Shown here: piece after piece, positions 1,150 through 63,600 of the stretch
Position numbering within the stretch: position 1 is the stretch's first letter
Layout of the letters: the number at the start of each line of letters is the position of its first letter
Assembly (NCBI GenBank): GCA_017506865.1
Contig: JAFCMP010000257.1
Span: 806,001 to 870,000 of the forward strand
Reading direction: 5' to 3'
DNA from: Tribonema minus
Taxonomy: Eukaryota > Sar > Xanthophyceae > Tribonematales > Tribonemataceae
Length of the DNA stretch: 64,000 nt
Notes under the pieces: model-generated
Told to the model about the DNA's origin: nothing
Databases searched by the model: none
Seen by the model: the letters and a program-made list of their open reading frames with translations, nothing else
Position numbers and translations under genes: made by a program

Positions 1150-4100
1150 GATCGCGAGCTCTCGCGGCAGCGCAGGGCACTGGACCATGTGTCGGACCGC
1201 ATGACCAGCTATGCCTGTAGCGACCAGGTCAAAGACACCACCGATCCACCACTGAGCGTGGAGGAATGGGAGGGCAGAGAGGTATGTAGGTACCGTGCTT
1301 TCTGGGAAGCAGGTGCCACACATGAGCTGCACGGCCGGATAATATAATGCCTGTGCAAACATTAGCATGGTCAATACCGACCCGCCGCTGAGCGTGGAGG
1401 AATGGGATAGTCGAGAGAGGTAGGTACCATGCTTTTAAGCAGCATGTGTCATGTATAAGCTGCATGGCTGGCTAACAATGCCTTGTGCAAACATTAGCAT
1501 GGTCAATACCGACTCGCCGCTGAGCGTGGAGAGGGGTGGGCGGGCAGAGAGGTAGGTAGGTACCATGCTTTTGAGAAGCACGTGCCACATACAAGCTGCA
1601 TGGCTGGCTATTTGAATGCCTGTGTAAACCTAAGCATGGACACGCGTGGCCTGTTGCTGAGCGCTGACGACCGGGAGGGCAGAGCAGTGGTAGGTACCAA
1701 GCTTTTGAGAGTGGGAGAGCAGAGAGGTATGTACCATGCTTTTGTGAAGCAGGTATCACATGTGCGCTGCATGGCTGGCTATGCCTGCAGGTGCAAACCT
1801 TAGCATGGGCACCAGCGGCCTGTTGCCGGGCGCTGAGGAGCGAGAGGCCAGGAATATAGGCATCATATATTTGAAATTTACTTAAAATGGGAAGACGTAT
1901 TCTTTTCAACAAGCAGTTGAGTGCTCACGCACCGCGTGCGGTTGCTTGCATCGTGCATGCTGTGGCTTGAACATTTGTACACAGCTGCTGATGCACTCAC
2001 CGACAGCACTAGTCATCAGCAATTGTGCATCGCGTGTACATTTGTCCACACGATTGATGTGAACAGGGTATTATTCAGAGTATTTTCCACAAGGCTGTGA
2101 GTTTGTCCCAGACACCACTTTGTCGTGTTTGTACTGCTCGATGACGTGTGATCAGCTTCTGACATGACCTCACCTGTGCAGATCAAGGTGCTGTTTGACG
2201 AGCCCGAACTGCAGCTCATGCTGATTGAAGACATGGCGAGTGACGCCGAGTGCGATGCTCTCTTGAGCGCTGCCGCTGGCAAGTTGGAGGTGAGCATCGC
2301 CTGCAGTAGCGTCACTCAAGAGTTTTAAACTTGGCAAGCTAGCATTTAGGCACACATAGGTGGTCCATAACATTGTGGTGCGTTGCTTAGCAATCTGCAG
2401 AGTGCACTGATGCACATTTTTGTCATAGATCTTTTGTTCTTCATTTGACATGGGCGTGCTCTGCTCTGGCAAGTTGAACCGGCGCATTGGGGTGGTGCTC
2501 ATGCACTGCCGCACACATTTTACACACAAAACGCTTGTACGAGGACCTCGTACTGGGCAACCTCTGTTACCGCGGCTACGCCTCGCCGTAGCCCATGCCG
2601 AGCACTGCTCGCTGTCACTTGAGCTGTCTGCGCAAACGCACAGTTCCAGGAGCGTTGTGCCAGTGAAACTCTCCCTGCAGTAATTCAGCCAGTATTCTGA
2701 CTCTGCCGTGTGCGAGAGGCAGTATAGCCCGTGAGTGCACAGTCGCCACGGCTGTCTGAGCTACGCTGCCCACACCTGGCCTTTGACTGTCCTGAAATAG
2801 TTAGTGGTGTTCGGGCGTGATCAATATTACAATGGATTCAACGTCATCCATAGCACGAAAAATAATTTTGCTGAAGCCTGTCTAGCAATTGTTTTCGATA
2901 AAAAATAAAACGTTCATGAGCTGGTTCAAACTTGTGTCCGTTCTGCAGGACGCGAGCGTGGATGGTAGATCTGACAAACAGCTGGCAGCATTGCTCACGC
3001 GTACCAAGGCCGGTCGAGTGGTCCCCAGATTGGATGCCAGACCTGGCGAAGACCCCATCGCAGACGTGTACCGCCGCGCCTATAGACTCACCAATGACAT
3101 GACGGGGTAAGATTGATCGATGGGCAAACTTGGGCAAATGGTTTATGTCTTGGCTCTGGTAGGCACTGCATTAGTATGCTTACGCACCTTTAAGCGAGGG
3201 CCCAATTGCGGACCTGTACCGTCGCGCCTATAGACTCACCAATGACATGACGGGGTAAGATTGAGCGGTTGTGCACAATCAGCCAAGTGCTTTGTGTCTT
3301 GACATTGAAAGGCACTGCAACAGTATGTTCATGCACCTTGAGATGTGGAGTCCATCTCCGTCCTGCATTGGTTTGCCTACAGTGCTGGCGCAGGCTGCTA
3401 CCAGCCTAGCTGCACGCTAAGCGGATCACATTGTATCCACTCTCCGCCTACCTTTAGCGTCTGTGCGGGGGGGACTGAAGGCATGTACCGTGCGACAGCC
3501 AACTCTGCTCGGAAGAAGCAACAAGAAATGAGAGCGTTGCATGACGCCCCGATCATAGTCATTTGTGTGTTGTCTATTGACCCTTATGTACTTCCCAGTC
3601 TCTGTACATGCCAATGCTCCTGTACTTTGCTTTAGGTAGCACCATACGATCGCTGCAACTTGAAGTTGAGCGTGCGTCCTGCGTTGACAATCCTCAACTG
3701 CAATCAGGCACGGACTGACCATGGAGGGCCAGGAGGCCTTCACCGTGGTACGATACGATGCTGGCGGCGAGTACTTCCCTCACTGCGACACCAATTGCGA
3801 CGGGAGTGCGCATACCCCTGGTGGCAGGTGCGTGTCGTACTAGCCATTTTGTCTCCGCAGCATGAACAGATCTCAACGTCCGCATGATTTTGCTGAGCGT
3901 TGTACGCACACTCACTGTGCTGTGCTGATAGCAGTGGTACAAGGTGCGTGCCATACTAGCCACTTTCTTGCCACAGCATGAGTAGATATCAACCCCCGCA
4001 TGCATCCGCGTCCGCATGGTTTCGCTGAGCGTTGCAATGCAGTCACGCGTGTCGCCTGGTGCAGTGCTCATCCTGAAAGTGGAAGTCTACACAATTCTTT

Positions 4101-9000: not shown

Positions 9001-9231
9001 GTTCCCAGCCCAGCTGCAGGCACCCATGCACTCCCAAATGTGTCCAAACCGTCAGAGCACGGTGCAGCCGTGTGGCCGCAAACACTCCCGGCGCAAACGC
9101 CAGGCGGCAAACGTGGCCGTGACAGCGCTCGCCTCAGCGCACACCGACTACCTACCCACCCCACCCCCGCATCGCTGCGCACACCGTTGACCTCAATCAT
9201 GCCGACGATGGCAGCATATGCGCACGCAGCA
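6061..9231. other. Intergenic region between P4H and the ferredoxin/MBL gene
   Basis: About 3.2 kb between two gene ends (+ strand end at 6060, - strand end at 9232). No confident gene was found. A 33-codon frame at 6849-6950 reads like a terminal exon (ends VAELLKDFACSGLPE). A Cys-rich - strand frame at 7281-7475 ends LRCPCAGPMTV. At 7024-7233 frames on both strands look equally plausible. 8480-8830 is rich in GTGTGTGT and G/C runs. None of these could be joined to a family or a consistent exon chain. Confidence 0.3.
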
Positions 9232-12200
9232 TCAGCGCCACATTCCCTCTGCGCGCGCGTCGGCGGCGAACGCGGCTGCGGCAGCGCTCACCTCGGCGCG
9301 CGCCTGCGCAGGGCCATCCGCGAAGCGCGCCACACGCGCGTGCCCCGGCAGAATGGCCGTGAAAGGCGGCGCAGCGTCAGAGCCGAGGGCTGCGATGGTG
9401 CGCGCTTGCCGGTCGACGCCATTGCGGTTGACACGCGCAAAGCCATCGAGGCGGTTACGCCATGCGGAAAAGGCGAGGTGGTCGCCTGGGTGCAGCGGGC
9501 AAGGGGGGGGGGTATCAATATGAGAGCTTGCAGGACTGGGGAAACGCGACAAATGGAGGTTGCTCTGCATGCAACAGGAAGCAATGAACGCCTATGTCTA
9601 CGCCCCCGTATACATATTTGATTCATCTGTATATGTTGAGGTCGACAGTGTTGTACATATATTTTGTTTACTTCCGCTTGAGGGGCGGAGGCCCTGCATG
9701 CCGAGATTGCGGGAAAAACTGCACCAGTCACGGATGCGCTGAGTGAACAACCAGTTACTGCTACAAGTATGCAAATTCATGCAAGGCATTGGCTTTGAGC
9801 CCCACCCGATGGTGTATATCAATGATCCAGCACACAGAACAAAGTATTGCTGTGATTGACAATAATCCGCCAGGACGCAGGCTCACCACGCCAATCCAAC
9901 GCAAGATACAGAGTTGAAATGCAGGCAGCACTGTCAAATTGCACCCAGTATGCGCGCCTCCGTGAAACCTCAAGCCCCACCCATGCACAGCACCCCAATG
10001 TCTCTCGCCGCCTCTTGCTGAAAGGTAATGATGCTCAATGTGTCCAACTTGGCCATAATTTTTGCGAACTCTGTATGCACATGGATGTCATGTAATCGAA
10101 CAGTGCCATGCGGCAGCATGGTGGCACGCGCGGCCGTCGACTTTGAGCACTTCTACACCCATACTTTTCCTTGTTTGAGCTGCAGAACTGTTTCCGTCAT
10201 CAACTCCAGTCTGAGGTGCGATGTCGGTGGTCCTGTGTACATTGCGGTATGTGATTAAGCTGGTGACACTTCAAAGTGTTGAAGCGTATATATTTTGCCA
10301 GCATACAGCCCCCCCCCCCCCCCCTGCGGTCTCTCCTCTAGCAGCACTGGCGACACCAAAAACAGCGTGGGGCCACTTTGCGCTTCAAAGTACTCCCATT
10401 TGCTAGTACTTATAAGCTGAGAGCACTCATAAGCTGAGAGCACTCTCGCCTGCACAAGCTGTCAATTCAAGTCCCACCTGTGAAAAGCACACCAGTCTGA
10501 GCGCTGCCTTCTGGCAAGGGTATGCTGGCCCACAGCGTCACGCAGCCCTCAGTGTGGCCCGGGGTATGTATCAGTATCAGGTCCGAAGCGAGGTCCCACA
10601 TTGCGATGCCATCTGCTGGGCACGCATGGCAGACAAGGCAGGAAAAAACGAATTGAACAAATGTTGTTAAGATGTTGTGGGGGGCATGTGGCACGAGCAC
10701 CACCGTTTGCAATGTACAAGTCATCAATTGGCATGATTGACGATCGAAGCAAGGTCCCACATGGCGAGGCCATCTGCCGGCGGGCATGGCAGAGGAGGCG
10801 GCAAGCAGAAATGCATATTCAATGTCGATTACATCTTATGGTGGTGGGGACAAGGCCTGAGCACCACCGTTTGCAAAATACAAGTTATCAATTGGCATGA
10901 TTGATAATGTGCTCATGTACATGTGCATCCGCCGTGGCGTGCTCTCAAATACTTCAATGAATGGAGAGTGCCGAGCTTTAGCAGAGATATGGCCCTTGCA
11001 GAGGCCTGAGTGGCTTTGACTATTTGCTGCCGCTAAACTCTCTACGGCAGCCGCATCCGCACCAACTCAAGCATGCGCCCATCCGCCACCACACCGTGCA
11101 CACAGCCCATCCCCACGTGCATGGTGCTCACTTGAATTTATGCAATGATCCCTGATCTGAAAGCAGTAGCTCTTGCGCGACTACTTCCAGAACCCCCTGG
11201 GACTTCAGCGACCCCCAGGTCTCCTGTTTTGAGTTTTGACTGAGTAAGTACGCCGCCAGACTTGCCTGGCTCGCCTGCGCACGGCATGCGGCGCGTCGCG
11301 GTGGCGTCTGACAGCTCCATCTCAATCACGCCAGCGCCGACGCTAGATCGGCCCCCTGTGTCAGCGGCGTGCATGATGCGCTGCATGTCGGGGAACGCCT
11401 GCGCCCACTTGGCATGGTCCGCCACGTCGTCCTGCACGTCAGTGCGCAGCACAAGATAAGCGCAGCAGCAATCAGCGCTCGCGGCGAGCCACGTCGTCCT
11501 GCACGTCAGTGCTCAGTGCACAAGCGCAGCAACGATCAGCGCTTGTGGTCCGCCACGTCGTCCTGCACGCCAGTGCTCAGCACAAGCGCAGCAGCGATCA
11601 GCGCAACAGTGCTCAGCGCACAAGCGCAGCAGCGATCGTGGTCCGCCACGTCATCCTGCATGTCAGATGCTCAGCGCACAAACGCAGCAGCGATCAGCAC
11701 TCGCGGCAAGCTACTTGAGGTAAAATTGCTTGTGCCGCAATGATCTTCTTTTTGAGAGCGTCTTGTCTTGTTCTTTCATACTCTTTTAGCCCAAGCTTGT
11801 GGATCTGAGTCCGTCGTCCTGCGTCAGTGCTCAGCACAGGCGCAGCAGCGATCAGCGCTCGCGGTGAGCCGTGCCGCCCACAGAGATGTCGGGATAGCAG
11901 CCTCTCATAAGGTTTGCAGTACATTAGCCCGGCAGGATCATGACTGGCCACAGTTATACAGTACGGGGGCACAGCAGATGACTCGTCAGTTCAGGGTGTA
12001 TCGCGCATTTTCCGGTCTGTCCAGAACTTTCCGTTGGCACCTTTTGCATGCTTATGTGCTCAAGATGCGGTAACGTCACTCGGAGTTCTCACATGACACG
12101 ACACACGGCCCATTCACCATGTCAGTACGTCAGTACACGTATGCCGCGGTCAGCACCAGCGCCAAGGGCACACGCATCAGTATAGATATATCCCTTTGGC

Positions 12201-14990: not shown

Positions 14991-15056
14991 CAGCCTTGTT
15001 GAAAACGCTTAGGCACCGTAAGCCAGCCTTGTTGAAAACGCTCAGGCACCGTCATG
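14991..15056. repeat. 33-bp tandem pair
   Basis: CAGCCTTGTTGAAAACGCT.AGGCACCGT occurs twice in a row with one substitution in the aligned part. No coding meaning was found. Confidence 0.85.
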
Positions 15057-15553: not shown

Positions 15554-15595
15554 CCTAACCCTAAACCCTAACCCTAACCCTAACCCTAACCCTAA
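15554..15595. repeat. Interstitial telomere-type array (CCCTAA)n
   Basis: Roughly seven units of CCCTAA, one of them CCCTAAA. It is the longest telomere-like run in the window, flanked by unique sequence, so it is interstitial and not a chromosome end. It suggests TTAGGG telomeres in this organism. Confidence 0.93.
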
Positions 15596-16251: not shown

Positions 16252-16345
16252 TGTTGCAAGCAGCCACTGACTCACCTGTCATTAAATCAAACCCGCGTGT
16301 CAGAAGCGCAAGCCAAGAAGGCATCAGTGCCAGCGCATGCGCGTC

Positions 16346-23340: not shown

Positions 23341-23427
23341 TGCCGCTTAGACCCCCTTCACCGTGACGAAGGCCTGCACGTCAAAAGCCAAAAAAATTAA
23401 AACACGACAAACTTGTCAAAACTTTGA

Positions 23428-23773
23428 TGAAAAAGTAATTGTTGAGGTAGCCATCAATAACCTTGAAGTTCGAGTTGACAGGGCCTGTGGTACTGGCAAT
23501 CACAGGCTGCTACTGTAATAGTGGGGAGTCTCAGACAATTTTCAAGTAGCAAGATTGACCTTGGATGATCAGGCGACGCCGTGGTCGCGTAAGTCCAAGA
23601 AAAAAGTAAGTGTTGAGGTAGCCATTAACAGCCTTGAAGTTCGAGTTGACAGGGCCTGTGGTACTGGCAATCACAGGCTGCTACTGTAATAGTGGGAAGT
23701 CTCAGACAATTCTCAAGTAGCAAGATTGACCTTGGATGATCAGGCGACGCCGTGGTCGCGTAAGTCCAAGAAG
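23428..23773. repeat. 171-bp tandem duplication with conserved hairpin
   Basis: Two copies, about 171 bp apart, of a segment starting near GTTGAGGTAGCCAT and ending GTCGCGTAAGTCCAAGAA. They differ at only a few positions. Each contains GCCTGTG....CACAGGC, able to form a 7-bp stem with an ~11-nt loop. No open frame spans the unit. It sits upstream of the signal-peptide exon at 23340. Confidence 0.88.
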
Positions 23774-42100: not shown

Positions 42101-43890
42101 AAGCCCATGCGCATACATGCCCAGGCAGAACATATCGCATGTACACAGTCCATTCACGGCATTAATGATGTGGACCATGCAGGACCGTTGACGCCAGCAA
42201 GACCATCGCAGCACTCAGCAGTGACCACATGCGCGCATTTGTATATACACACGTACTACCACTGGGGTGCTTACATTGTGCTTGACTGCTCAACACAAGT
42301 CCGCATCAGGTGGCATCAAGTGCTGATTTGACCAGGTAGACTGCAGGGTTCAGCATCCCGATTCACAACATTCGGTGCAAGTGCTGAGAGGTTCTTCCAC
42401 AGTGTCGTATTACTCCCAGTATGGTCATGACAGCATGCCATGAGGTGTGGGCCACCGTGTGGCAGATCTACAACGCAACACCGCGCAGCATGTGCATCCT
42501 GTCTCAGCACTACTATGGCTCGAGCTGTCACAACGCTCCCGCTCTATGTAGCCATCACGACACGATGCCTTGACGTGTGCGCAATCTCCCTCACTCGAAC
42601 AACCATTCTCCCCCTGATGCGTCAGCAGTGACTGACTGACTTCATACATACATACGCATACCGCCGCCCCACTGCCGCTGCGGCCGCAGCAGAGGACGCG
42701 CGCCGCAAGCGCCAGCGCATCGCCGCCGAGCGCGGCTACGACTATGTGGACAGCCTGGGGTCCGACTCTGACTCTGACTCTGCATCGGATGACAGCGGCA
42801 GCGAGGGCGGCGGGGCGGGTGGCAGACGGAAAGCGCATGTGGCACAAGGGGGGGTGCGAGTGCCTGCGAGGGGGGGGAGGGGGGTAAATGGGGGGCTGGG
42901 GCAGGGAGAAGTCGGCGCGAAACGGCCAGGCACATGTGAGTAGTTGCAGGCGTGCTGCTGGCGCATTGTTCATTGGTTGTTGGGCAGAGTCCACTGCTAC
43001 TGCTATGCGTCATGCAGTGGGCAAGTCATGTCTATGATCGCACGCAGAGTAATCGTGTGATGTCAGTTTAGTCTGTGCGAGCGATGTACTAGTTGTGGTG
43101 CTGTCATTGCTTTGCGCATGCGAGATGGCTCACTTTGTGGCAAGGCCGCCTGCCGTTTGCTCGCATGGCCCGTTACTCATTGAAGCATGCATTTGCGGAA
43201 GTTGAAGCGAAGGACGCTTGTGTTGGCAGTGCTGTGAGCATACGCCCCGGACACATTTGCGGTACGTGAGAAACTGTGGTGTTCGCTTTAGTATATGCGA
43301 CCGTTCAATGCGTGTCAAGCAGCGCGGGATGCCGAAGCATACCGCACAGGTCGCTGTGGTTGTCGACTGCGGAAAGGAGATGTTTGCAGGGCAATGGGGG
43401 TATGTAGGTACGGACTATGCAGCAGCGCTCAACATCTAGCGGCATGCTTGATTGCATCTCGGCGATGGTGGCACAGCATGTTTGCGTCCTGGCACTTGCT
43501 TCAGTAGAAGCACGTGGTGTTTTACGTCCTTGGACGTGCACACAACATGTAACGACGTGCAAGGGATTCGAGGCATTGCAAAACCGAAGGCCCACCAGCG
43601 CTGGTACCAGGTGACGATAGCCCCACTGCGTTTGCGAAGTCACCAAGTTGAGCACTGCTATCAGTGTTGCTCGTGCGCCTATCTGTGGTCAACCAGCCGC
43701 CACTGTGCACACCATCGTGGAGAGCTTATCATCACGCGTGCACTCATGAACGCGTGATTGTTGCTCTGCCCTCTCCAGCGGCGTCGTCGCCGCTGCAACC
43801 GAAGCGCGCCAGGACGAGCACTGCCGTCGCTGCTCAGTCGCCGCTGCAGCGTAACGGTTCGGCGCGGGAGCAGCAGCAGCCACGCCATGA

Positions 43891-43934
<44 letters not shown>

Positions 43935-45099: not shown

Positions 45100-48000
45100 A
45101 TGACCCGGGTAGCAGCTGTCGTCGCCATCCTGGGCCTGGGCGCCACGTGCCAGGCCTTCGCTCCCCAGCCCGCCTGCTCGTCAGTCAAGGCAGGCAGGAG
45201 ATTGAGCGTCTCAAAGCGGGTGCCCTCGTGGTTGCAACAGCGGCAACCAGCAGCCGCAAGACGGTAAGCATCTCCATCATGCATGACCGTCATGCAGCAG
45301 CGCTTCCCATGCACTCTGTGGATGCATCGCAGGCTTTGCTTGACGCGCGTGCGTACGCATGGTGCTGTTTTTGTGGGCTTTGCAGGGTGTCGGTGCTGAA
45401 GTCCTCAGTGGTAAATGACGAGGCCGTGGGCGAGGCGGCTGCGGAGCTCAGGGATGACCTCAGGAATATCGCCATCGTGGCACACGTCGACCACGGCAAG
45501 ACGACGCTGGTGGACGCCATGCTGCGGCAATCGGCTGTGTTCAGGGACAACGAGAAGGTGAAAGCGAACTTACACGTAACAATCTTGCCATCAGCTTCAG
45601 CTTCATGTGGATCTGATAGCGTGTGACTCCTTGAGTGCTTGCTGGGGCCGCTAGTCTGCGGCTTGTCTAGGTAAAAGCTTTGCTGCAGAGAGGTTCATCG
45701 CTCGCACTTTGCGTCTCGGCAAATGAACCTTACCTTCTAACACCACTAGGAGTTTTACTAGCCAGCTGGAGCTCACCATGTACACACTGCTTCAAGCATG
45801 TGTCTTGCGTAGTTACCAGGGGATGCAGGCTCTCAACTTACGTGGCTCAAAACCACGTCTTGTAATCGTCTCATGGCCACTCACATGTCAGTGCCGCTGA
45901 CCTTTGTCCTCAATATCACATCACCTAGCAAAATAACTGCAGTCAAGTTGTCTTGAATAACACAGAGCAAGTAGAGGGCATTGTTTCAGTGTCGAGCACC
46001 TGCCAGGTGCCATGCCACATCTCGTGCCCGGAAGGGTGTGTTGAAAAAGTAGGTTGCCAGCTGTCTCATATCGTTAGAGCTCCATTTACACAACAACAGC
46101 GCTTGCAGTCATTGTCACATAGTATTGTCGATGCTTTACTTTTGCATATTGTGCACTTCAGTAGGTCAAGGGCCTCGTGCTACACTGCAGGCTATACTTG
46201 ACAATAGCTGACCAGCCATAAGTGAACGCATTTCCTCCTAACTCAAGTGCTGAATGATACCCTTCATGCACACAACTGCTCAATTAAGCATGGGTCTGTC
46301 CGCATGAATTGAAGGCGAAAATGCACAGAGTTCTACATTTCAGAAACCATTTGGTAACCTCAGCAAGAATTGGTATCTGTTACGTTTCAATGTGTGCTGG
46401 TGCTTTGTCTCTATGCATGCACCTGTGCAGCGAGAAGTTTGTCATCAAAGCAGCTTGAAAGTGTGTTCTGGTCGCGGAAATCACAACAAGTTCCTTTTTG
46501 AAGCACTTTTAATGTGAAAAGAAAGTCAAATTCACCTCATCCCATGTACAGTCATTTCTACCTTTGTTCACCCTAAACTTGACAGTAATTGTGTTTACGA
46601 GACAGGCAGTCCTTACCTTGCGCTCTGGCAGCAGCCTCAAATACGATGTATAACTGCCTGCCATACCGGCTTCATGTGCTGTATCTGATCCCAAGAAATT
46701 TGGGCAATCCGTACATTTGCTGTCACGGCAATGTCAGCTAGTTTGCTGATGAGCGCTTCCGCCCTGTGTGTGAAACCGTCGTAACCGCCGTCAGATGGAG
46801 GAGCGCGTGATGGACTCTAACGACCAGGAGCGCAAGCGCGGCATCACCATCCTTGAATATTCAAAGAAAAGAACTAGTCGCTGATGAGCGCTGCTGCCCG
46901 CTTGTGTAACTGCCGCAGATGGAGGAGCGCGTGATGGACTCCAACGACCAGGAGCGCGAGCGCGGCATCACGATTCTCGCCAAGAACTGCGCGATCCGCT
47001 ACCAGGGCGTCAAGTTCAACCTCGTAGACACCCCGGGCCACGCGGATTTCGGCGGCGAAGTCGAGCGCATCCTCAACATGGTCGACGGCGTCCTCCTAGT
47101 GGTGGACTCTGTGGAGGGCCCCAAGCCGCAGACGCGCTTCGTGCTGAAGAAGGCGCTGGAGCTCGGGCTGCAGGCGGTGGTGGTGGTGAACAAAATTGAC
47201 CGGCCGAGTGCGCGCCCCGATTATGTGGTCGACAAGACATTCGACCTGTTCTGCGAGCTGCAGGCCAACGACGCGCAGTCCGACTTCCAGGTGCACGGGG
47301 CGCAAAAGTTGAAGTTGATGTTGATGTCACATTGACATGTGCATTTGACAGCGAGTTGAGATTGGTGTGCATGCGTACGCGACAGCGTCGTCGACAAGAC
47401 GTTGACCTCGTCTGCGAAGTGAATTCTCAGTGTGTGTTTACCTGGTAGTTGAACTGGAAGCCGTGGAGTGTGTACCGACTGATGTGAACGTCATTGCTCA
47501 ATGATGCCGTGTCATGACTTCCTGCACACATGTAACAACTGCACCAGCCCAATAAATTTTGTGTTTGCGTGTGCGCACCTGCAAATTGTGTACACGAGCG
47601 CCATCCAGGGCAATGCTTCCGTGTCACACCTGCACACATGTACCAACACTGTTAGTATACTCATCCAACACACGCGTTTGCGTATGTGCACCCCGCAGGT
47701 GTCTACACGAGTCACCCAGGGCAATGATGCCGTGTTACACCTGCACACATGTGATAACACTGCTAGTGTATTTCGCATACTTATCCAACACACGCGTTTG
47801 CGTATGCGCACCCCGCAGGTGGTCTACACGAGCGCCATCCAGGGCATCGCCGGCGACGAAGCCGACGCCCTCAAGGACAACATGCAGCCGCTCTTTGAGG
47901 CGATCCTCAACATGCCACGGCCGGTGGTGCGCCCGAACGCGCCGCTGCAGATGCTGACCGCCAACATTGACTACGATGACTTCAAGGGCAAGCTCGGGAT

Positions 48001-51000
48001 CGGCCGCGTGCACTCCGGCTCCATCAAGAGGGGCCAGGTGCGTGAATCCATTCATTCACTGGCGTGAATTCATGTAACTGCCTGCGTATGGTTGACATCG
48101 GCCGCGTGCACTCCGGCTCCATCAAGAGGGGCCAGGTGCGAGTTGATCTCATCGATTTGTCTTTTGGTGAATGAGAGGTTGCGATCATGTTAATTGATTG
48201 CCTGTGGAAGGTTGACATCCGCTGCAGGAGGGGCCAGGTGCTTGGGCTTGCGTATTCATTAATCCAAAATGATAGGGGGGGCATGAATTCATGCAACCGC
48301 GTGCACTGGGGTGTCTGGCTCATCACACTTACCAACCACACTTGGAGTTGTTCACACGTTCAGGTGGGCACCACCTCTGCGGTGCGCCTTGCATCGCGCA
48401 TGACACGGGATCGGTTCTCATCAGTGGGCTTACCCCATTTTTTTTTCTCACTTTTTGCTGCGCAGATGGTGGGCGTCACGCGCCCTGGCGAGGCCGTGAA
48501 GACGAGCCGCATCAGCGAGCTCTTTGTCTTTGACAACCTGGGCCGCATGGCGGTGGAGGAGGCCTCCGCAGGCGACATCGTCATGGTCGCCGGCATTGAC
48601 GAGATTGGCATTGGCGACACCGTGGTGGACCCTGCCAACCCCATACCCATGGTGCGTGCTTGCGTGTGCGCTTAGATTCCAGGCTCTTTTTTGGTGGGCA
48701 GTGGCTTTAGAAAGGGTATGAGGTGACCTTTCTTTTCATAAAATGGCGACATTGTCATGGTCGCCGGCATTGACGAGATTGGCATTGGCGACACCGTGGT
48801 GGACCCTGCTAACCCCATACCCATGGTGCGTGTGCGCTGAGGTTCCGTGCCGTTCTGGCGATTGTCAGCGGGGAGTGAAACCACTTAATAGTGAATGACG
48901 TGACCGGTCTTGTGCATGCGATGGAGACATTATCGTGGCGCTCGTCGGTGGGGAGTGGCTGCATTTGTGCAAGACATCTTTGCATGAAATGGAGACATCA
49001 CGAGTGCCGTCTTCGACGAGATTGGCATCGGCGACACCGTGCATTTGATCTGCACCGCGTTGACGGCACTAATTTTTTTTTGGGCACGCGCTTCAATGAC
49101 TCGTGACTCGTGACTCATGGAAGTGCGCGCAAGCATCGGCAGGTCACGCACACCGCGGCGATTGGCTTTGCCACTGCCACCACATGTGTGCGGCTGCATG
49201 AGATGACGTTGATGACCGTTTGAGTGAGGTCTCAAAACGGCGCCTGCGCTGGCGCGCTGCTGAGCCGTGATGACTTCATCACAGTGCTGACCCAGCCCCC
49301 TCGCAAACCCCCAGGTCCCCATTGCCGTGGAGTTCACGCTCATCTTGACAGGCGCTCCAGTGCCTCATGCACAATCAATCAGTCACAGTACTGACCCCCC
49401 CCCCCGTCCCCCTTACCTCCAGGTGCCCATTGCCGTGGAGGAGCCCACCGTGCGCATGACGTTTGGCGTCAACAAGTCCCCCCTCGCCGGCCGCGAGGGC
49501 AAGTTCCTCACCTCGCGCATGATCCGCGACCGCCTCATGAAGGAGCTCGACAGGTGCGTGTTGAAGTTATGCATGTTGTTGAAGTGGGGCTGAAGTTGTG
49601 CATGCTATTTGAAGTCAGGCAACTTCGTCGCGTCGCGCATGATCCACGACCGCCCCATGAAAGGAGCTGGACAGGTGCATGTCGAAGGTATTTGTGTTGT
49701 TGAAGTAGAACAGTCGCAGGTTCTGCTGCAAGTAACAGATGGGACGGTTGGATGTTTGGGCGTTGAGTTGAGGTTGCTCGCCTGGCGGTGTTGAAGTAGG
49801 GCGTGGGTGTCAGACTTCCTCTGCATTTACACCAGAGCACCTGAGTGCGTGCACACATTCAATATGGGCCATTCTCTTCAACAAGTGTCCCAGACACGCG
49901 ATGCTGCCTGTGGAACCGACGCAATTCACCCGTATCATTGGTGTGTGTTGTTGGCGTGCTGTGCTTGCCTGATTGAGGAGTGTGACGAGACTTGTTTGCG
50001 TCATTCTGCCTACTTTGCACCGTTCTTATACAACGCAGCTAATTAGTGTCGTTCTGTCTTCCACAACCCCCCCAGGAACGTGGCGCTGCGCGTGGAGGAG
50101 ACGGACTCTGCGGACGTGTACGAGGTTTCCGGCCGCGGTCAGCTGCACCTCACGGTGCTCATTGAGAACATGCGTCGCGAGGGCTTTGAGCTGCTGGTGG
50201 GCCCCCCCACTGTCATCACGCGCAAGGACAACGGCAAGGTGAGCGCTGCTGCACCATGCGCACTATTGTAGTTGAAGTTGGCATTGCCATCTGAGGGGGG
50301 GGAGGGGCACTCATAGTACGCACTTGAAGTTGTGATTGCCGCACCGTCATCACGCGCATGGACACGGCAATGTGAGCGCTGCTGCACCACGTGCACTTGT
50401 GGTTGAAGTTGGCGTCGCCATTCGGGGGGAGAGGGTGGCACATGTAGCACAGACTTGAGTTGTGAAGGGGAACGTGCGGCCCCTTGTTGCTAGTATTATT
50501 TTCGCGCCTCAACTCTATACATATCCTCGAATTACACATGGTTATGCCCGACCCTTACCCGCACGTATCCTCACTCTTCTGCTCCATCTGCCCCCAATCA
50601 CTGTTGATGAAGTCGTTCGGGAAGGGGAAGATGCAGCCCCTGCCCTTAGGAAGTATGATTTTCGCGCGAGTACATATACACCTGTTTGAAGTATACCGTT
50701 TCTGACCATAATAATTACTCTATCTGCCTGCAATCGCAGCTGATGGAGCCCTTTTGACCTTCAAGTATACACACTTTCTCACTATTGTACTCTGTCTGCC
50801 TTCAACATCGCAGCTGATGGAGCCCTTTGAGAAGGTTGAGGTCCAGGTGCCCGACGAATACGTGGGCTCTGTGGTGGACCTGCTGTCACGCCGCAAGGGG
50901 GAGATGATCAACATGGCGCCCGCAACTGAGGGCGAGACGGGGTTCACCAACGTGGAGTATGTCGTGCCAACGCGCGGAATGATTGGCCTGCGCAACCAGG

Positions 51001-53180
51001 TCAGTTTCCATTTACTTAAAGTACACTATAGTACATTTGATCGTATTGGATTGATGTCATCATATCGTATTCACAGAAGAGATGTTCAGCATGGCGCGTG
51101 CCAGCCGGCAGTCTTCATCATTGGGTTAGGGTTAGGGTTAGGGCTGCGTGTCATGCCCACGCTTTGCATGATACTTTAACTTCATGTGCTTCTGTGTAAA
51201 CAATCTAAAAATGCGCACCTGTTACCCCTTGTTGAAATTGACGTTGCCTTATTTGATGTTTTAGCCAATGGTGTCTGCTGGTGGTCGCCGCGATACTCTG
51301 AGGCGCAAGCTGTTCGATGATGCAATGCATCACACCGAGCGTACACTCACCTCAGCTCCTCCCTCTGACCTTCACCGCAACTTCAAACTTGCAGATGCTG
51401 ACGGTGACGCGCGGCACGGCGGTCATGGACACCATATTTGAGTCGTACAGGGAGTTTGCGGGGCACATTGAGGCACGCGACAGGGGCAGCCTCATTGCGC
51501 ACGAGGACGGGCCCGTGACGCCCAACGGCGTGCTGGGCGCACAGGACCGGGGATCGCTGTTCTGCTCGCCGAAGGTATGCTGGTATGCCGTAAATGCCCG
51601 AGTAAACGCCCCCCCCCATGTACAAGCCCATCTGCCCTGTAAACGCCCATGGGCGTGCTTGCCAGATGTCATTAGAATTCAACGTGCTCGGCGCGCAGGA
51701 CCGGGAATCGCTGTTCCGGTCCCCCAAGGTACATTCATATGCCTTCTTGTACTTGAACATATATGGTGGCATTGGTACGGCTGTTGTGTATTGCGTGGCA
51801 GCTGGTGTAGAAGCCACCAGCCCAGTTGTGCGTAGATCCCAATGGAGTCCTGGGCGCGCAGGACCGGGGATCGCTGTTCTGCTCGCCCAAGGTATGCTGG
51901 TATACGTAGAAAAGCATGCGTCAAAGTACATAGAAGTATATACTACAAGTTATCTCTGTGGTATGTTCTTGTGTAGAAGCTTCGCTTCGGAATTATTAGA
52001 TCTCCAATGGCGGGCTCGGCGGGCAGGATTGGGGGTTGCTGTTTTGCTCTCCCAAGGTACATACATGAGCTCTCCTTCACGTGTATACATGATACGACAG
52101 TATTGCTGTTGTATATTGTTGTGGCTGTTGGTGTATAAGCTTCGTCTTAAGAGGCATTAAAATCCCAACGGCGTGCTGGGCGCGCAGGACAGGGGATGGC
52201 TGTTCTGCTCGCCCAAGGTAGTCTGGTGTACCATGTAGCGGGGGTGTAGTCGGGTGCACGGTGCAATGTTCAATATGTTGACGTTTGTGTTGCATGTCTC
52301 CTACATATGATGGGAGGTGTCAAGTTGAAGGCTGTCTGACAGAGATGTGCGACGTGTTTGCGGCTCACGCGTCCACTTGATGGCTCAACTTCAACTGGTG
52401 GCCGCACACAGGGCCAGCGTCTGCTCGGTGTGATTGTGGGCATGCGGCACCTCAACATCACTCTCATCTCACCTCCATCAACTGTACGACTGACTCACCT
52501 AACAAATTTTAATGGTGACTCACCTTGCAACTTCCAATGGTGACGCACCGTGCAGGACGACGTCTACTCTGGCATGATTGTCGGCATCCACCAGCGCCCA
52601 GGGGACCTCGTCGTCAACGTCTGCAAGGTCAAGGCGCTCAACAACATCCGCTCCGCTAACAAGTCCATTGTGGAGGGCATTGTGCCGCCCGTCGAGATTG
52701 GCCTGGACCAGGCTGTGGAGTACATCAATGACGACGAGCTCGTTGAGGTGCGCAACTTTAAATTTGAAGTAGATAAGTGTTGCGGTTCGCGTGTGATGGA
52801 CATTCACAAAGACGCAATGTGGTGTTTTTGAGGTGTGTAAATTCGTCTTTGAAGTTGGGTGCAATTTTTCAAGAGTGCAAAGCCCGCAGGCGAGTGCTCT
52901 GTGCCTATATTTCATGCGCTTTACATGTGCTTGCTTGCCCCCGCTCACCGCATCATAGTGAGGCAAAAACGGCCATTCGATCTTGCAATGTTCTTTACGA
53001 CACAGCAGATGCCACCTATCTGCAGACATGTGACATCATCGCCTTGACTAACATGCCCCCTTTGCCCCCCCCCCCCCGTGCTGATCGCTGACACAGGTAA
53101 CCCCCAGCAAGGTCCGCATGCTCAAGAACCCCGACATGGGCAAGCGCGGCGGCAGCAAGGGCCTCTCTACCAAGCGGTAG
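45100..53180 (+). CDS. typA: TypA/BipA translational GTPase, plastid-targeted
   Basis: Eleven exons: 45100-45263, 45386-45557, 46919-47290, 47819-48037, 48466-48651, 49423-49553, 50076-50238, 50814-50999, 51395-51574, 52556-52747, 53097-53180 (TAG); 682 residues, all junctions in phase. It is a ribosome-binding GTPase of the EF-G/EF-Tu superfamily acting in ribosome assembly and stress growth. The leader [20 protein letters not shown] with FAP at the cleavage site plus a basic Ser-rich transit region indicates a complex plastid. G motifs: G1 AHVDHGKTT (~residue 86), G2 in ERERGITI, G3 DTPGH, G4 NKID, G5 TSAIQG. The C-terminal half shows [18 protein letters not shown] and the EF-G-like domain V ([29 protein letters not shown]), the BipA-specific [10 protein letters not shown] and [27 protein letters not shown], and a basic end. 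Length is normal for a plastid TypA. At least eight of its ten introns contain decayed copies of neighbouring splice junctions. Confidence 0.97.
46735..46985 (+). repeat. Junction duplication, TypA exon 3 acceptor
   Basis: The exon 3 start ([18 protein letters not shown], ~60 bases) with its acceptor and ~50 bases of intron (GCTGATGAGCGCT) is present at 46795 and 46919, 124 bp apart. The upstream copy is in frame for 20 residues, with one Glu-to-Lys change, before diverging. Confidence 0.93.
47380..47850 (+). repeat. Junction duplications in TypA intron 3
   Basis: Near 47389-47421 a decayed copy of the exon 3 end appears (GTCGACAAGACGTTGACCTC against GTCGACAAGACATTCGACCT). Near 47585 and 47698 are copies of the exon 4 start (TACACGAGCGCCATCCAGGG, TACACGAGTCACCCAGGG) with the CACACGCGTTTGCGTATG..CACCCCGCAG acceptor block, spaced ~110-121 bp before the true acceptor at 47818. 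Confidence 0.9.
48000..48245 (+). repeat. Three-unit donor array, TypA exon 4
   Basis: CGGCCGCGTGCACTCCGGCT, CCATCAAGAGGGGCCAG and donor GTGC repeat with donors at 48038, 48136 and (shortened unit) 48238, about 100 bp apart. The second unit repeats the last 13 residues of the exon without change. Confidence 0.92.
48575..49045 (+). repeat. Donor duplications, TypA exon 5
   Basis: The exon 5 end ([20 protein letters not shown], then PANPIPM) and donor at 48652 recur at 48738-48827 with the coding part almost unchanged, a spacing of 174 bp. A third, shorter copy (GACGAGATTGGCATCGGCGA) lies at 49014-49043. Confidence 0.93.
49275..49450 (+). repeat. Acceptor duplication, TypA exon 6
   Basis: CACAGT.CTGACCC, a C-rich tract, CCAGGT.CCCATTGCCGTGGAG occur at 49278-49332 and 49385-49440, about 109 bp apart. 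The downstream copy is the true exon start. Confidence 0.85.
49490..49690 (+). repeat. Donor duplication, TypA exon 6
   Basis: GGCAA.TTC.TC.CGTCGCGCATGATCC, CGACCGCC.CATGAA, GGAGCT.GACAG and donor GTGC repeat with donors at 49554 and 49674, 120 bp apart. TTGAAGT-type motifs follow both donors. Confidence 0.9.
50210..50460 (+). repeat. Donor duplication, TypA exon 7
   Basis: CACCGTCATCACGCGCA, GGACA.CGGCAA and donor GTGAGCGCTGCTGCACCA repeat with donors at 50239 and 50371. Both are followed by GTTGAAGTTGGC and a G-rich run. Spacing is about 132 bp. Confidence 0.9.
50570..50840 (+). repeat. Acceptor duplications, TypA exon 8
   Basis: CTCT.TCTGCCT.CAA.ATCGCAG followed by CTGATGGAGCCCTTT occurs at 50718-50754 and 50788-50828 (74 bp apart), and a more decayed version (TTGATGAAGTCGTTCGGGAA) lies near 50605. 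Only the last opens into exon 8. Confidence 0.82.
51122..51143. repeat. Telomere-type cluster in TypA intron 8
   Basis: Three to four units of GGGTTA in sense orientation to the gene. Confidence 0.85.
51520..52225 (+). repeat. Five-unit donor array, TypA exon 9
   Basis: The exon 9 end ([18 protein letters not shown]) with its donor and ~100 bases of intron is repeated five times. Donor-like GT positions are 51575, 51729, 51892, 52056 and 52217, spacing 154-165 bp. Unit 3 encodes exactly the same 18 residues as the exon; units 2 and 5 differ by a few residues and stay open; unit 4 has lost the frame. Intron parts share GT.GAAGC and a GTATGCTGGTAT block. Confidence 0.94.
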
Positions 53181-57111: not shown

Positions 57112-57598
57112 CTATGGCGCCGAATGCGGCACCGCTGCATCCGCCGCCAGCCCCTTCGCGCCAGGCTCCCGACGCTCCATAAACAAATCGCAGCGTGTGC
57201 CGCTGCCTGCTGGCGCTGACATTGGCGCTGTTGCTTGAGTCGCTGCTGCCGCTGCTGGGGAACTGCCGCCCACGCGTTTCGTGTAGGGGTTTTCTCGCGA
57301 CGCCCCCTGCGACGCCGGCGCGGCGGCGCACGCGCACGGGGAGCGCACGTTTCGCCGAGCGCTGCCACCCATCGCCTGCATGCGTGCCTGCTCACCAGGA
57401 GCCTCTGCTGCTGCTGCAGCGGCCGCCGCCGCCGCCGCTGCTGCCAACACCGCTCCAGACTGCGGCGCTGCCGGCAGCGGCGGCGGCGCTGCAGCGGCGG
57501 CGGCGCGCGCCATTTGCAGCGGCGGGCCCAGCGTCTCCGCTGCAAACGCGCGCGCGCTCACGAAGCCGCGCAGCGGTGGCGGCCTCCCCGCCCCGCAG

Positions 57599-57651
<53 letters not shown>

Positions 57652-60600
57652 CTGCGGCAGCGGGTCGTGAATGGCGTGCGGGTGCGCCTCCAGGTGTGCG
57701 CGGATGGCAGGCTGGCGTGCGTAGAAGTCGCGCAGCTCCGGCAGCAGATCGCTCGCGCAGGCGCAGCGCTGCAGGTGCGCCTGCGCCCAGCCGCTGATGA
57801 GGCGCGAGTTGGCGGGGGAGTGGTATCTGCAGGCCGGGAAGGGACGGGGGGGGGGCAAGGCAGGGGGGCACGTCGGCTGTGGGAATTGAAGCATGCGGGA
57901 TGAGCGTGCAGAACGCACATGAGGGGGGTGCATAAGTTACGCAGCGATGCTGCAGGTGCGCCAGCTGGTGAGGCGCGGTTTGATTAGCGGACTCCGAGTG
58001 GCACTTGCATGGCTGCAGAGCGCAAACAGAGGGCCCCGGGTTGCGTGAACCAACGATTTCCGTTCCAATCAAGCAGTGCTGCCATGCCTTGGCTGAAGAC
58101 TGCGCTGGCAGCAGCTGTATTGCCTCAAGGATGCTGATGCTGCATTCAGGATGGCCTATGAGTTGATCATTGCTTGCATGCAAGCAGCCTTGGTGACATA
58201 CTGTGGCTCAGGGTATAAGGGTGTAAACACTTGCGCAGAGACACCGGTCAAGCTAGAGGCGCCACCGACTGAATTGCCAATGTCTGCACAGAGCATGCTA
58301 CCTTAAGTATCTGTGCCGTCATAAACATAGTTGCACGTAAAGCACTGGTCAAGTCGGCAGCACACGCATGTACACATCTCCATCCTTGTCTTTTGACCCT
58401 CGCCCATACCCTATGTATGCTATGCGTCATCGAGCAGCAGCACGACGCCGCGGAAGTCAATCTGGCGCACGTACAACGCCATATCTACATGCTTTGAAGT
58501 ACGTTACCCTACACACGGTGGTTTCACACTTGACTGAACCTGGAACCCAATCCTACTTGACGGTTTCACGTCACCTTGTCCTCACCCTGATCCCCTAATC
58601 CCATCGCTAACACTAACCTGTACCCTTGCCCCCCAAGTTGCTCACCTGTCATCGAGCAGTATCACAGCGCCGTGATCAAGTCGATGTCGCACGCACCGTC
58701 CCAGCGCCTGGTTGAGGGCTCTGAAGGCGGTCTGCCGGTACCACTGCTCGCCGCTGCGGCGCATTTCACAGCGGTGCAGCACGTCTCAGCACGGAGCAGC
58801 AAAACCTCAACGAGTGTGCGAGCGCAGCTTATGTGATGCTCATGTTCCAGAAGTATGTCATTTTACGAATTTTTGGGGGTAGAGGGCAGCGCATGAACGA
58901 ATGAGCATTGTGTAACTAAAGCACGTATGGACTTGTATTTATAAAGGCCCAAGGGAGGCCGGGTTGCCTATGCAATCGAAAAGCTTGCGTCAACGCAGCA
59001 GCCTAGTCTGCGCTGTGCCCTAGGAGCTTGGATACCGGCGCCGCAACACAGCCCAGCATTCGCGCTCCACGTGTGTACGCCATGACGCGCTCCGCCAACT
59101 CCCGCGCCAGCGATATGCTCAGCTCAATGAGGATCTGACGCTTAGCTAACCCGGCCTTGCGTAACACATCTGCCTTCCCCCCCCCTGAGCACAGTGCTGA
59201 GTGCATTGCCAACTCCTTAACAAAAAGGCTTGTCTGCTTGCCCAGCCGTCCGTACGACTCCTGCACGAATGGCACAAAAGCCCAAGATGACGTCAAGGTG
59301 CCGGTGTGGTGCTTGACCTTCGCGTCCTCCCCACCCCAGCAGCATAGCCGTCCGTGTTCGAGGCATTTGTTTTGCCTGTCAGGTACGAGCTCGCTGTGGG
59401 CGCGCGCACACTTGTGTCTAGCACTATTCCCTTGTTACGGTATGTACTGAAGCACTGATTGAGTCTTGCTGCTGTGGGGGAAAGGTCTTTCAAAGAAACG
59501 GCTAGAGGAGCGAAGCCGCCTCTGCGAGCAGAGCTCATGTTGTATGCCTACGTCGTAACGCTGTATACAGCAGCACCGACGCCAGCGATGATGAGAGCGC
59601 CACACTTGCACGCAGCGCTGCGGCGCAGTTCACAGCGGTGCAGCACATCTCAGCAGGGGCGGCGTGAGCGCATGCGCGTCGAGTGTGCGAGCGCTTCTGA
59701 TGGTGACCGCTATGCTAGCAGCACCGACGCTAGCGGTGATGTCCGGGAAACAGCTTTTTTTTGTGGCGGTTCCGACTCTGTGTGCCACTGGCTGCTGTGC
59801 TCATCACGTGTGCTCACTCATGATGGCCAGCGATGGAGCCAAACCGAATATGGTCGCTGCAATGCACTAGATCCTCACCTCTCGTCTAACAGCGCATCCT
59901 TCGGGATTAGAGGCGAGGAATAGGGTTACTCGCAACAGAGTCTGGTCATGGCGTACACGCAAGCGGCGTAGGTGTCGTGCAGCATTTATTCTGAAGAACA
60001 ATGGAGATAATGACAACTAATGCACTTGCGATGGAAGGCGGAAGCTGCAACAACCGCGCACAGTGCCACGCAACGCTCACGCTTGTGCACAATCAGGAAG
60101 TGCTGGAGAGGCATGTGCAAGGCTTGAATGCGTGCTCACGCAATAGAATAGCAATGGCAGGGGTATGATGTTCTCGTGTGCGTTTTGCCCTATGCAAAAC
60201 GAACTGTTCGATTGAATGACCAGAGGAAGTGTACTTGTGTTCAACAAGCCCTGTTGCATCGGTGAGAGTGACTACAGCTTTTGTTGGAGTATGCGCATGG
60301 CGTTGCATCTGATCACGCAAGAGCAGCTCACTGCAAGCACAAAGGGCTGATGGCGAAGTCGGCCGTGCATCACACAATAATCACAGCAACACATCCGGAC
60401 GCAATGCCTTCCACTGCATGGCGCAAGCACCGTGCATGAGCTCAAATTCAACAGCTCACTTCAAGTGCAGGTCGCGATTCGCCTTGTGCTGAGCGTCTTG
60501 ATACTCTTTCTTGCACCGCGTCTGGGTGTCCAGAGCACCAAAAGGTATGCCCACGCACACAACCATTCTACACAGCCCTGCAGCAGCCAACAATTTTTAC

Positions 60601-63600
60601 AGGATAGCAGGCGTTTCATCGTGTCAGTTTTGGAGGATTCAAGAGACATGAGAACGTGCAGACTTGGCCCTAGCCCTTTTCCCGGCCCTAACTTCACTGC
60701 AATCACAGTAAGAGGGTCACAGCAACCAACTTGCGGTGCCTCACAGCAAATGCATTCAAGGGACACCAGCAAAAATCGAGCATACGACCACTCTGCACAG
60801 CTCTGCAGTAGTCAATGACGCAAAGCGCAGGCGTGAAAGCATGGCAGTTTGGGAAGATGCAACAGATAACACAAAAAACCTGCAGCCAAGCCAGGTTTGC
60901 GCCTGACCCTACCGCTACTGTGCCTCTAGCCCTGACCGTACTTTATTGTAAGGCAGTGCCCTTGGATATCACCGCCACATTGTGCCTGCACAAGAAGAGC
61001 CCAGATGAATCTCATGAATTTTGAGCAGTTATTGCAGCAGCAGCGACGACAAAACGTCGTAACGGGAAGCGCCTGAGTCGATGCCCATTTGAGATAGGCA
61101 TCAACAGTCTGCATGCAGGTTAATTAGCTGACGTCGCTATCAAAAGCTGCCAGTTGCGTTCCTTGTCTGCATAGCGTCAGGGTTAGCGTTAGGGTTAGGC
61201 GCTGCCAGTACACTCCCAGTTTGCAGGGTCAATGCACTCATTGCATCTGCCTCCATTCGAAGCCAGCAGAACAGCATACAAAATTGCTCGGGCACGCAAA
61301 CGCTGTGCTTGCCAATGCTGATTCAGCCTCCATGGACTGCCGCAAAAAGCGGCCAAGCTCCACCATCTAGTCACTGCACACACTCACTGTCTGGGAAGTC
61401 AATGCCCTCGCTGATTTTACCCCTGAAAACCGCAAGCAGCAGCGCTCCGTGGCCACCCTCCATGCGCCGCTTGAAGTTCTGGAGTGCATGCGCCATCTCG
61501 TCGCCGGCGCTCCCCGTCGGTTCCCGGAATATCTGCATGCCGCAATGCACAACAGGGTCTCTCAAAAATTCTGAAACTGTTGAGCATTAGTAAGCTGGAT
61601 CCCTGATATTGGATGATGTACAGTTTCTAAAGGAGTGGCCGTCAATGCGAATTGAGGCATTTTTGTAGTGTCCACAAGACACATGCGGATTCCGGTAGCG
61701 AGCTGGACATCTCCAGTGCCATAAGCGAAGAGTAATAAAAGTACACGGCACACCCTGCGTGTGATGAGCTGCAGAGCTTCAGGCCGAGCAGTTGTAGTTC
61801 CTGAGCATTATCCATGGCGCGCATGGTCTTGTGAAACACTAAAACTTTTTTTCTTTGTAAATCTATTGTTTTGTGTGAATGTATTTTTTGTGAATGTAAT
61901 TTTTGTATTTACAAAAAATAGCGAATGTATCTTTCTGAAGCACTTTCTTGAAACATTCACAGAATACTTCAGATGTGCATCCAAGCAAACTGGGCGTGGC
62001 CCACCGTGGCCCATACTAACTGCAGCACTGATGGCAAAACTGGGCGTGGCCCACCGTGGCCCATACTAACTGCAGCACTGATGGCGCGTGGCCGTGCATG
62101 GCGTAGCGAGAACAAACATCTAAAAGTACGCGTGGAGTATTGTAACACTGGCAAGGGCGGCTACAGGTACAACTTCAACTTGTGCTCTCCACCGGGCACG
62201 CATATATATTTAGAGCGAATTACCGCTGATCGAACAGTTCTTCAACAAGGTTTCAGCTGCAGAACGCTTGAACTCAAGCCTTAGGACATGTTGCAGCTGT
62301 GCAGGAGCATATCCAGTGCAAGCGTTCTTGACACAATATCAAAGGCACAGGGTGCAGGAGAATGTACTGATTCTGTAGCTGGCATGCACGATATGGACGC
62401 AGCTCAGTGACATGCACATCTCTTTGGCAGCATGCTCGGGGCCAGCGGGCAGTGTGGCGCTGACGATGTTTTATGGTGAACCTGAAAACGAAAAGGAACG
62501 CTTGCTTCGTGACGCCAGTGCGTCCGAGCCGCTGCGGTCTCAGCTATTCAAGGCTAATAAATGGCCCGATTTCTTGTCAGTGCTAAATCGCAATCGCTCA
62601 ATTTCCGAGGCAGCCCGGCGTGGTGTCTGGGCATTTAGAAAAATGTCCCACCCACACCCTCCCTCGCAAAAGGAAAACATGAATTCTCAAGGAGCTTGCA
62701 TGCGGGCGCAGCAGCAATGCGGGGAGTTTACGCGTACCGCGAGTTGTCGGGTGTGGACCTGAACAGTTTCTCATTGGCGAGCATGCATCCGCAGCAGTCA
62801 TGCAGGGAGTCCACTAGTACCGCAAGTCATCTGGTGTCGACTTGAACAGCATTTGAACATTACCGCACACGGCAGGTTATGCGTATGAGGTACCCTGTGG
62901 TCACGGGTGACGAGTCTGAGCACAGGGAAAAAGGGCCCGACTTCACAAACGAAGAGCAATGATTCTTAAGGAGCTCGCATGCAGGTGCAGACCGTGGGCC
63001 AGAACAGTTTTAACCCTTGCCTCATACGGCAGAAAAAGTATCAGTTACACGGCGGCCATGGGTTACGACTCTCACTTACGAATAAAACACGTGTCAAAGG
63101 AATGTACTTGCACCCGTGCCACGGGTGTGCGCGCTTTCCCTGATACGGATATACTGCGGAGTATACAATGCGCTGTGCTGCGTGGTACTCCATATTGTAC
63201 ACATGAAGTGGAAGCGTGACGTGCCAATTCTTTCTGACAAGTAAGCTGCGTGCAGCGTTAATCTAGGGGCATCAAAAATGTCTATTTATTGATCTACGGC
63301 TCTGGGCTGAAAACCATGTACCTTATGCAATTGTGGCAGCGCGACCCATACCTGTTTCTTGCTGTCGAGCAGGTGATACATTCCTGTAGACCGCCACCGC
63401 GATAGCATGTCAGCCAGCAGCTTGTAGCTGGGCAGAAAACACAGCAGCCCGCCTGCGACGTGCAGGAGCATCGGCGAGTGAAGTTCAACAGCAATTGAAG
63501 TTGCAGCAACTCGTGAATATGACGTTTCAAACGTAGCTGCTCGTTCAACATGTCCAAAGCGTCACCATGTGAAGTTGACTATAGCTCCAAAACAAGCAAC

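Follow-up and report, generated by a model that had tools for sequence, protein, structure and literature searches.

Several described systems connect sequence duplication with introns. The consulted part of a report on the potato RdRp gene (PMC4974935) presents a single tandem duplication across an intron-exon boundary, from which a new intron arose via a cryptic donor; the gain of introns through tandem genomic duplication of exon segments with AGGT is well documented in the consulted parts of a review (PMC3443670) and of a Drosophila study (PMC2891723); and introners, as far as the consulted part of PMC9860276 describes them, are dispersed copies that shape introns genome-wide. The present analysis concerns a window of 64,000 nucleotides from the xanthophyte Tribonema minus (PX clade), positions 806001-870000 of contig C257, and the "echoes" in its introns, i.e. 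copies of a neighbouring splice junction that carry part of the exon, one splice site and adjoining intron sequence. Changes in intron length are usually put down to transposons and to small insertions and deletions, and tandem exon duplication, including that of mutually exclusive exons, is known to leave duplicated exon sequence within an intron. Among the titles and abstract openings listed in searches of the open-access literature, with subscription papers mostly outside the scope, no account of intron lengthening by junction duplication was found.

Potato and T. minus have in common a duplication across a splice site in nuclear genes (in T. minus, 62 of 83 gene-body events at predicted junctions and all nine events of its TypA gene); the potato case, however, is a single one in which an intron was created, whereas in T. 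minus the process is recurrent and seems to lengthen existing introns, leaving the mRNA unchanged. With intron gain by tandem genomic duplication the echoes share a local duplication absorbed by the spliceosome, but that process makes new introns from exons, and its signature was seen here in one event. Introners resemble the echoes in their genome-wide shaping of introns, but are dispersed, whereas each T. minus echo is confined to the intron in which it lies. Unlike tandemly duplicated exons, the echoes consist of one splice site with part of an exon, mostly without frame conservation (copies in the myosin gene L029 being exceptions), and the CNNM proteins seen omit them. In our judgement, local duplication across splice sites very probably lengthens existing introns of T. 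minus from both ends, with the outermost splice pair being used; growth of introns by junction duplication, as proposed in an earlier note on this DNA, is supported on 300 kb and on a further 37 kb from other contigs.

Echoes and their position at splice junctions

The main sequence set of 300 kb comprised positions 700001-960000 of C257 (260 kb including the window; the contig measures 1,067,145 bp in an assembly of 158.18 Mb and 554 contigs) and 20 kb each of contigs C1 and C50. A second set of 37 kb was drawn from five stretches on C3, C44, C522, C501 and C457; it was partly non-blind, as an echo-like second hit had led to the choice of C522, and such a hit had also been noticed on C3, which was included as a paralogue. 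Genes were modelled ab initio with a self-trained hidden Markov gene finder, whose splice model converged on AG|GTGAGT-like donors and GCAG|G acceptors and which gave 243 exons and 205 introns in the 300 kb; tiny in-frame exons called on echoes were reassigned to introns by a fixed rule, after which 169 introns remained. RhoGEF/PH, CNNM, SNF2/RING and FANCJ-like genes were among the models recognised through Pfam or solved structures. MBL, Tudor-like, GON4L-like and P4H are labels of the earlier note, and of the names TypA, MBL and Tudor-like the search confirmed TypA only. Echoes were sought with the last or first 90 exon bases against the adjoining intron (score at least 36), and the counting of events left out pairs less than 20 or more than 1,000 bp apart and low-complexity pairs.

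Duplication in this DNA is local and direct. Self-comparison of the window (score at least 50, low complexity removed) gave 42 direct-repeat pairs less than 1,500 bp apart, one pair farther apart and one inverted pair within 1,500 bp, and the 260 kb contain 286 direct against 5 inverted pairs at offsets of up to 600 bp (blastn score at least 50, normal complexity). Copy identity spans about 66 to 100%. The unit length over 260 kb has a median of 152 bp and a 5th-95th percentile range of 82-383 bp, which fits the roughly 70-240 bp given previously. The window itself holds 21 local duplication events, 12 of which cross a predicted junction by at least 5 bp (nine in TypA/BipA, two in the MBL-labelled gene and one in the Tudor-like-labelled gene), while one is intron-internal and eight lie where there is no gene model. 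About 18 echo cases had been listed in the earlier note; 12 were confirmed at modelled junctions, and one or two more are plausible.

The TypA/BipA region (45440..53177, + strand) consists of ten exon segments and nine introns, delimited by matches to BipA (8ewh), 86% identity to P0001 and GT/AG borders. The exons lie at 45440-45557 (start arbitrary), 46919-47290, 47819-48037, 48466-48651, 49423-49553, 50076-50238, 50814-50999, 51395-51574, 52556-52747 and 53097-53177. Self-comparison against the homologue-checked exons revealed acceptor echoes of exon 46919 (46745..46977, unit 135 bp) and of exon 47819 (47563..47846, repeated arms with VYTSAIQG), and further acceptor echoes precede exon 49423 (49279..49440) and exon 50814 (50716..50828, unit 72 bp). 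Donor echoes follow 48037 (47999..48140; 44 identical bp, made up of 39 bp of exon and GTGCG, 98 bp downstream), 48651 (48571..49041; 81 bp of exon and 7 bp of intron at 97.7%, with a more diverged copy at 48977-49041), 49553 (49498..49706, unit 120 bp) and 50238 (50205..50465, unit 134 bp, a tandem pair that is almost contiguous in the extended alignment). After 51574, four decayed copies, ending near 51731, 51891, 52056 and 52217, lie in one 981-bp intron (51521..52231). The peptide at 51574 is present five times in the genome and once in homologues including BipA, and the gene finder called TypA echo peptides four times over as small exons where BipA has one.

Counting duplications as events brings out the excess at junctions most clearly. 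The 260 kb contain 111 events, comprising 62 that cross a junction by at least 12 bp, 19 confined to introns, 2 in exons and 28 in intergenic DNA, whereas uniform placement of the 83 gene-body events gives 34.0 ± 4.0, 33.8 ± 4.0 and 15.2 ± 3.3 for the junction, intron and exon classes, respectively. The excess is present in every identity class and at margins from 8 to 30 bp, and it stays at the widest of these (43 observed against 26.7 ± 3.5 expected). In TypA, where the exons are checked by homology, all nine events cross a junction by at least 5 bp (expected 3.5 ± 1.3; 0 of 4,000 placements as extreme), and seven of the nine do so by at least 12 bp (expected 3.1, P 0.003). The echoes exceed, in both comparisons, the uniform frequency that the earlier note had set against its own proposal. 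When exon copies were simulated as constrained and the rest as drifting, the detected junction:intron ratio moved only from 0.37 to 0.39, a shift so small that detection bias does not account for the excess. Relative to uniform placement, junction crossing by duplications is enriched about twofold.

Copies of exon ends were found in the own intron of 43 of 149 donors (reverse strand 0/149, length-matched introns of other genes 0/828) and of 27 of 146 acceptors (reverse strand 1/146, other genes 0/805), which bears out both the occurrence of echoes on the two sides of introns and their excess over other exon-intron pairings. Depending on query and threshold, 60 or 54 of 157 introns, about one third, have an echo on either side, and 23.5% of predicted intron bases are inside a local duplicate, so for most of them the phrase "introns built from" overstates the contribution of echoes. 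When 90-mers were compared with up to 600 bp on one side, copies were detected for 43/136 donors (31.6%), 26/136 acceptors (19.1%), 63/327 positions in intron interiors (19.3%) and 30/460 intergenic positions (6.5%), in line with the claim that intergenic DNA is poorer in echoes. Local duplication is about threefold more frequent in introns than in intergenic DNA, a contrast that is presumably understated since the intergenic class includes missed genes. At gene ends, the weakest part of the models, 3/27 stop codons and 0/28 start codons were copied; stops were copied less often than donors (P 0.035), which is a hint, given these uncertain gene ends, that copying is tied to splicing and not to exon ends as such.

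In the second set, 17 of 50 introns carry echoes (reverse control 0/50, other-gene pairings 5/1238), distributed as 7/10 on C522, 4/7 on C3, 1/6 on C44, 5/16 on C457 and 0/11 on C501; with C3 and C522 removed, 6 of 33 introns remain with echoes. Echoes were seen on C257, C3, C44, C522 and C457, and are common in T. minus introns, not universal. Two myosin genes contrast in this respect, with 7/10 echo-bearing introns in L029 (C522) and 0/11 in L030 (C501). An echo-like second match of the myosin head model was also noted beside an exon match at G000:C79:614315-614419.

Within introns the copies are ordered. Donor-type copies occupy the 5' portion of the intron and acceptor-type copies its 3' portion, donor echoes preceding acceptor echoes in 57 of 58 pairs (11 introns with both), and the copy number reaches six per junction. 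The exon part of a copy measures 20-150 bp (median 53) and comes with one splice site. Echo-bearing introns are longer (median 852 vs 510 bp, P 2e-7; the larger target may contribute), and intron length rises with copy number (rho 0.41), a longer intron again being more of a target. The same order is seen most clearly outside the window, in an intron of 2.35 kb (2,349 bp) of a CNNM gene located 22-32 kb upstream of it, the protein of which is 99% identical to T. minus JKP88DRAFT_269955. This intron harbours six donor-type copies (LLVRAVMTPKEK, some preceded by KYKD) followed by four acceptor-type copies (VFMLSADARLDYRTVRAI). The T. minus model P0121 joins MTPKEK straight to the last VFMLSADARLDYRTVRAIFGTG, without the echoes, and P0128, a EukProt protein translated from an assembled transcript and identical to P0121 at 250 of 251 residues, likewise skips them.

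Intron growth and competing accounts

According to the reading preferred here, stretches of about 80-380 bp within gene bodies would time and again give rise to an adjacent copy, and where such a stretch covers a splice site, either the exon end, donor and a piece of intron, or a piece of intron, acceptor and the exon start, would be doubled. Splicing would stay at the outermost donor and the outermost acceptor, leaving the mRNA the same, and the inner copy would turn into intron and decay; as the outermost pair is used, extra copies would be tolerated. Repeats at each end would nest inward, with donor-type echoes at the 5' side and acceptor-type echoes at the 3' side, and old introns would thus grow from their ends. 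Both homology and a single protein derived from a transcript speak for use of the outermost splice sites, and we infer that duplication is the mutational step, that echoes are nearly neutral and that the outermost-pair rule is general. T. minus would accordingly display a visible and datable splice-site process, with copies of all ages present, that appears to lengthen many introns. Intron growth is made directly measurable in terms of copy number, order and age, and the echoes offer a clean test of splice-site choice where the spliceosome meets many donors and acceptors that resemble one another.

Several observations weigh against this reading. Purely intronic copies should be equally harmless, so the removal of extra copies by splicing, given in the earlier note as the reason for their retention, fits their survival and fails to explain why junctions are preferred; the roughly twofold preference has no explanation in that account. 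At a 30-bp margin the shortage of intron-only events vanishes (38 vs 38.8 expected), and, base by base, acceptors are copied no more than intron interiors, donors alone being copied more. No echoes were found in five introns of C1, eight of C50 and eleven of C501. The direct orientation and order of the copies are clear, and head-to-tail contact is seen in few: among 61 extended cases, 8 abut within 15 bp and 11 overlap as arrays, the rest being decayed or spaced, and 16 share at most 12 bp of intron. Most junctions come from our own gene finder, which calls some echoes exons, and the rule-based merging broke some reading frames. The RNA evidence consists of one protein, P0128, whose own genome may or may not hold these echoes, which makes its support indirect; moreover, its tail after WPDQPLG leaves the gene model inside an exon and is 47% like DNA about 4.5 kb downstream. 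P0128 may be an aberrant isoform that exits perhaps through a cryptic donor, a retained intron having been rejected as the source of the tail because it leaves the gene within an exon. Finally, the exon-like parts of echoes decay slowly. Their divergence relative to the intron part is 0.54, against 0.86 in neutral simulation, and in comparisons of echo with echo the exon-like parts are 0.79 identical and the spacers 0.63, a difference of 0.16 vs 0.06 simulated. In one L029 myosin intron, three of five echoes (at 99, 431 and 614) keep an open frame, two with 3-bp insertions.

The junction preference may have its source in breakpoints linked to exons or transcription. A more far-reaching version, in which junctions themselves are preferred duplication sites (breakpoints being tied to exons, transcription or splicing), introns ratchet inward, the exon refreshes its echoes by conversion and the intron is a layered record of growth, spliced correctly only through the choice of the outermost sites, is put forward tentatively, as a possibility that we lean somewhat against. 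Refreshment of echoes on top of duplication, by gene conversion from the exon or by new partial copies of exon ends, is less likely than not. Near-identical exon pieces beside unalignable intron, found at 48037 (39 bp, 100%), 48651 (81 bp, 98%) and the CNNM donor (50 bp, 100%), are in favour of such refreshment, as is an asymmetry between exon and intron parts that exceeds simulation, but faster mutation in low-complexity, C-run-rich introns would yield part of this asymmetry. Conversion from the exon, faster intron mutation or weak constraint could each explain the slow decay of the exon part.

Duplication without any junction preference, i.e. uniform tandem duplication combined with purifying selection that removes exonic copies, is in our view unlikely. 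It would accommodate the equal rates at acceptors and intron interiors, the rarity with which exon-interior 90-mers are copied (4/128 in the next 160 bp only) and the disappearance of the intron-only shortage at the 30-bp margin. It is opposed by the 62 junction events where 34 are expected and the 19 intron-only events where again 34 are expected, by an excess that appears in all identity classes and margins tried and in all nine TypA events, by a detection bias that is too small, and by the approximately threefold enrichment of introns over intergenic DNA.

That echoes are functional, being maintained by selection as alternative exons, nested splice sites or decoys, is improbable. In its favour, the exon-like part is better kept than the spacer in 23 of 28 echo families (C257, L027-L029), and this holds beyond the simulated bias even between echoes; the open frames of the three L029 echoes point the same way. 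The published T. minus models P0241 and P0242 of the SNF2 gene (around window coordinate 104000-128500) take echoes as exons, containing the echo peptides TSMRHSKGQ five times and FNAADEAQ three times, and the RNA evidence against such use is thin. We read these peptides as a sign that the public annotation of the SNF2 gene is inflated by echoes, with the practical consequence that gene finders, including the one behind these models, mistake echoes for exons. Against a function, mismatches between exon and echo amount to 120/1232, 79/1243 and 141/1243 at codon positions 1 to 3 (9.7, 6.4 and 11.3%), and 8 of 10 gaps have lengths not divisible by 3; this codon-position pattern and the frame-breaking gaps indicate no strong coding constraint, and a general one at the protein level was rejected. 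In the L029 intron, the echo at 257 is interrupted by an in-frame stop and the one at 796 is short of 27 bp. The CNNM echoes are missing from P0121 and P0128, and the TypA peptide occurs just once in BipA. When echoes are found by their exon part alone, the splice site is kept in 31/40 donor and 17/21 acceptor echoes, near the 79% simulated for donors. An apparently higher conservation of GT/AG (52/58) was produced by requiring alignments across the junction and was set aside.

Birth of the introns by tandem duplication of exonic AGGT segments, with echoes as relics of that birth, is very improbable. It would fit a duplication in the MBL-labelled gene (11415..11865, - strand) that touches the two ends of a single 190-bp intron (11432-11621), its acceptor at 11431 and its donor at 11621; no other case seen resembles intron birth. 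In such a birth the intron comes to lie between the copies, with its donor in one and its acceptor in the other, a signature limited to this event (2 of 70 echo-bearing junctions). Three CNNM paralogues (C257, C3 and C44; 58-75% protein identity) have introns at common positions (near residues 141, 190 and 292 of P0127), as judged from the ends of exon matches. At residue 190, the intron measures 2,349 bp with ten echoes in C257, 558 bp with one echo in C3 and 515 bp with one-plus-one in C44, and the echoes in each case resemble the exon of their own gene. Shared positions with different sets of echoes argue, in this one gene family, for growth and not for birth. Lastly, an assembly artefact or the spread of a transposon or introner can be dismissed, since copies graded from about 66 to 100% identity and recurring on five contigs make assembly error an unlikely source, and exon-end queries that match other introns in 0/828, 0/805 and 5/1238 cases leave no sign of a mobile family.

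Other genes and splice sites

At 1240..1851 (+ strand), an array of about four 136-bp units was recovered by TRF (3.5 copies of 136 bp), self-blast and alignment, each unit consisting of a putative exon end (TDPPLSVEEWEGRE), a GT-like site and about 90 bp of putative intron. The array interpreted earlier as donor echoes of a P4H gene is real, whereas the P4H identity and the exon end are unconfirmed, since no P4H domain came up when the three forward frames of 1-9002 were searched with Pfam at E of 1 or below, and the gene finder placed no gene at the array (after a second training, none at 1-9234). In the MBL-labelled gene, an acceptor-side echo with a unit of 161 bp and 76.7% identity lies at 10584..10904 (- strand, ab initio model). 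In the Tudor-like-labelled gene, several donor echoes follow the predicted exon end 28329 (28277..28940, + strand; seven pairs, counted as one event). Junction echoes had been described for the GON4L-like-labelled gene as well, but self-comparison revealed there only an intron-internal duplication with a 236-bp offset (41845..42297, + strand).

For the FANCJ-like gene (- strand), the reported repeat exists as the pair 58752-58833 / 59616-59702 (58752..59702); it adjoins the predicted exon end 58764 at the edge of the gene model and was left out of the junction count. Judging from predicted peptides, this helicase gene seems to extend from about 74.7 to 54.4 kb (54417-74747), past the end of the window; the gene finder split it in two, with a FANCJ match for the upstream part only. 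Young local duplications also occur where there is no gene model, at 13375-13662 (98.6%), 23430-23772 (96.5%) and 61987-62085 (100%).

Intron phase 0 is favoured over the other two phases in all merged gene models (89 vs 41 and 39), and in eight of nine introns of TypA. Exons end in CAG, GAG or AAG in 79 of 157 cases, i.e. about half. Approximately 14% of the donors predicted in the 300 kb are GC, not GT, and some of these GC donors are also GC in their own echoes.

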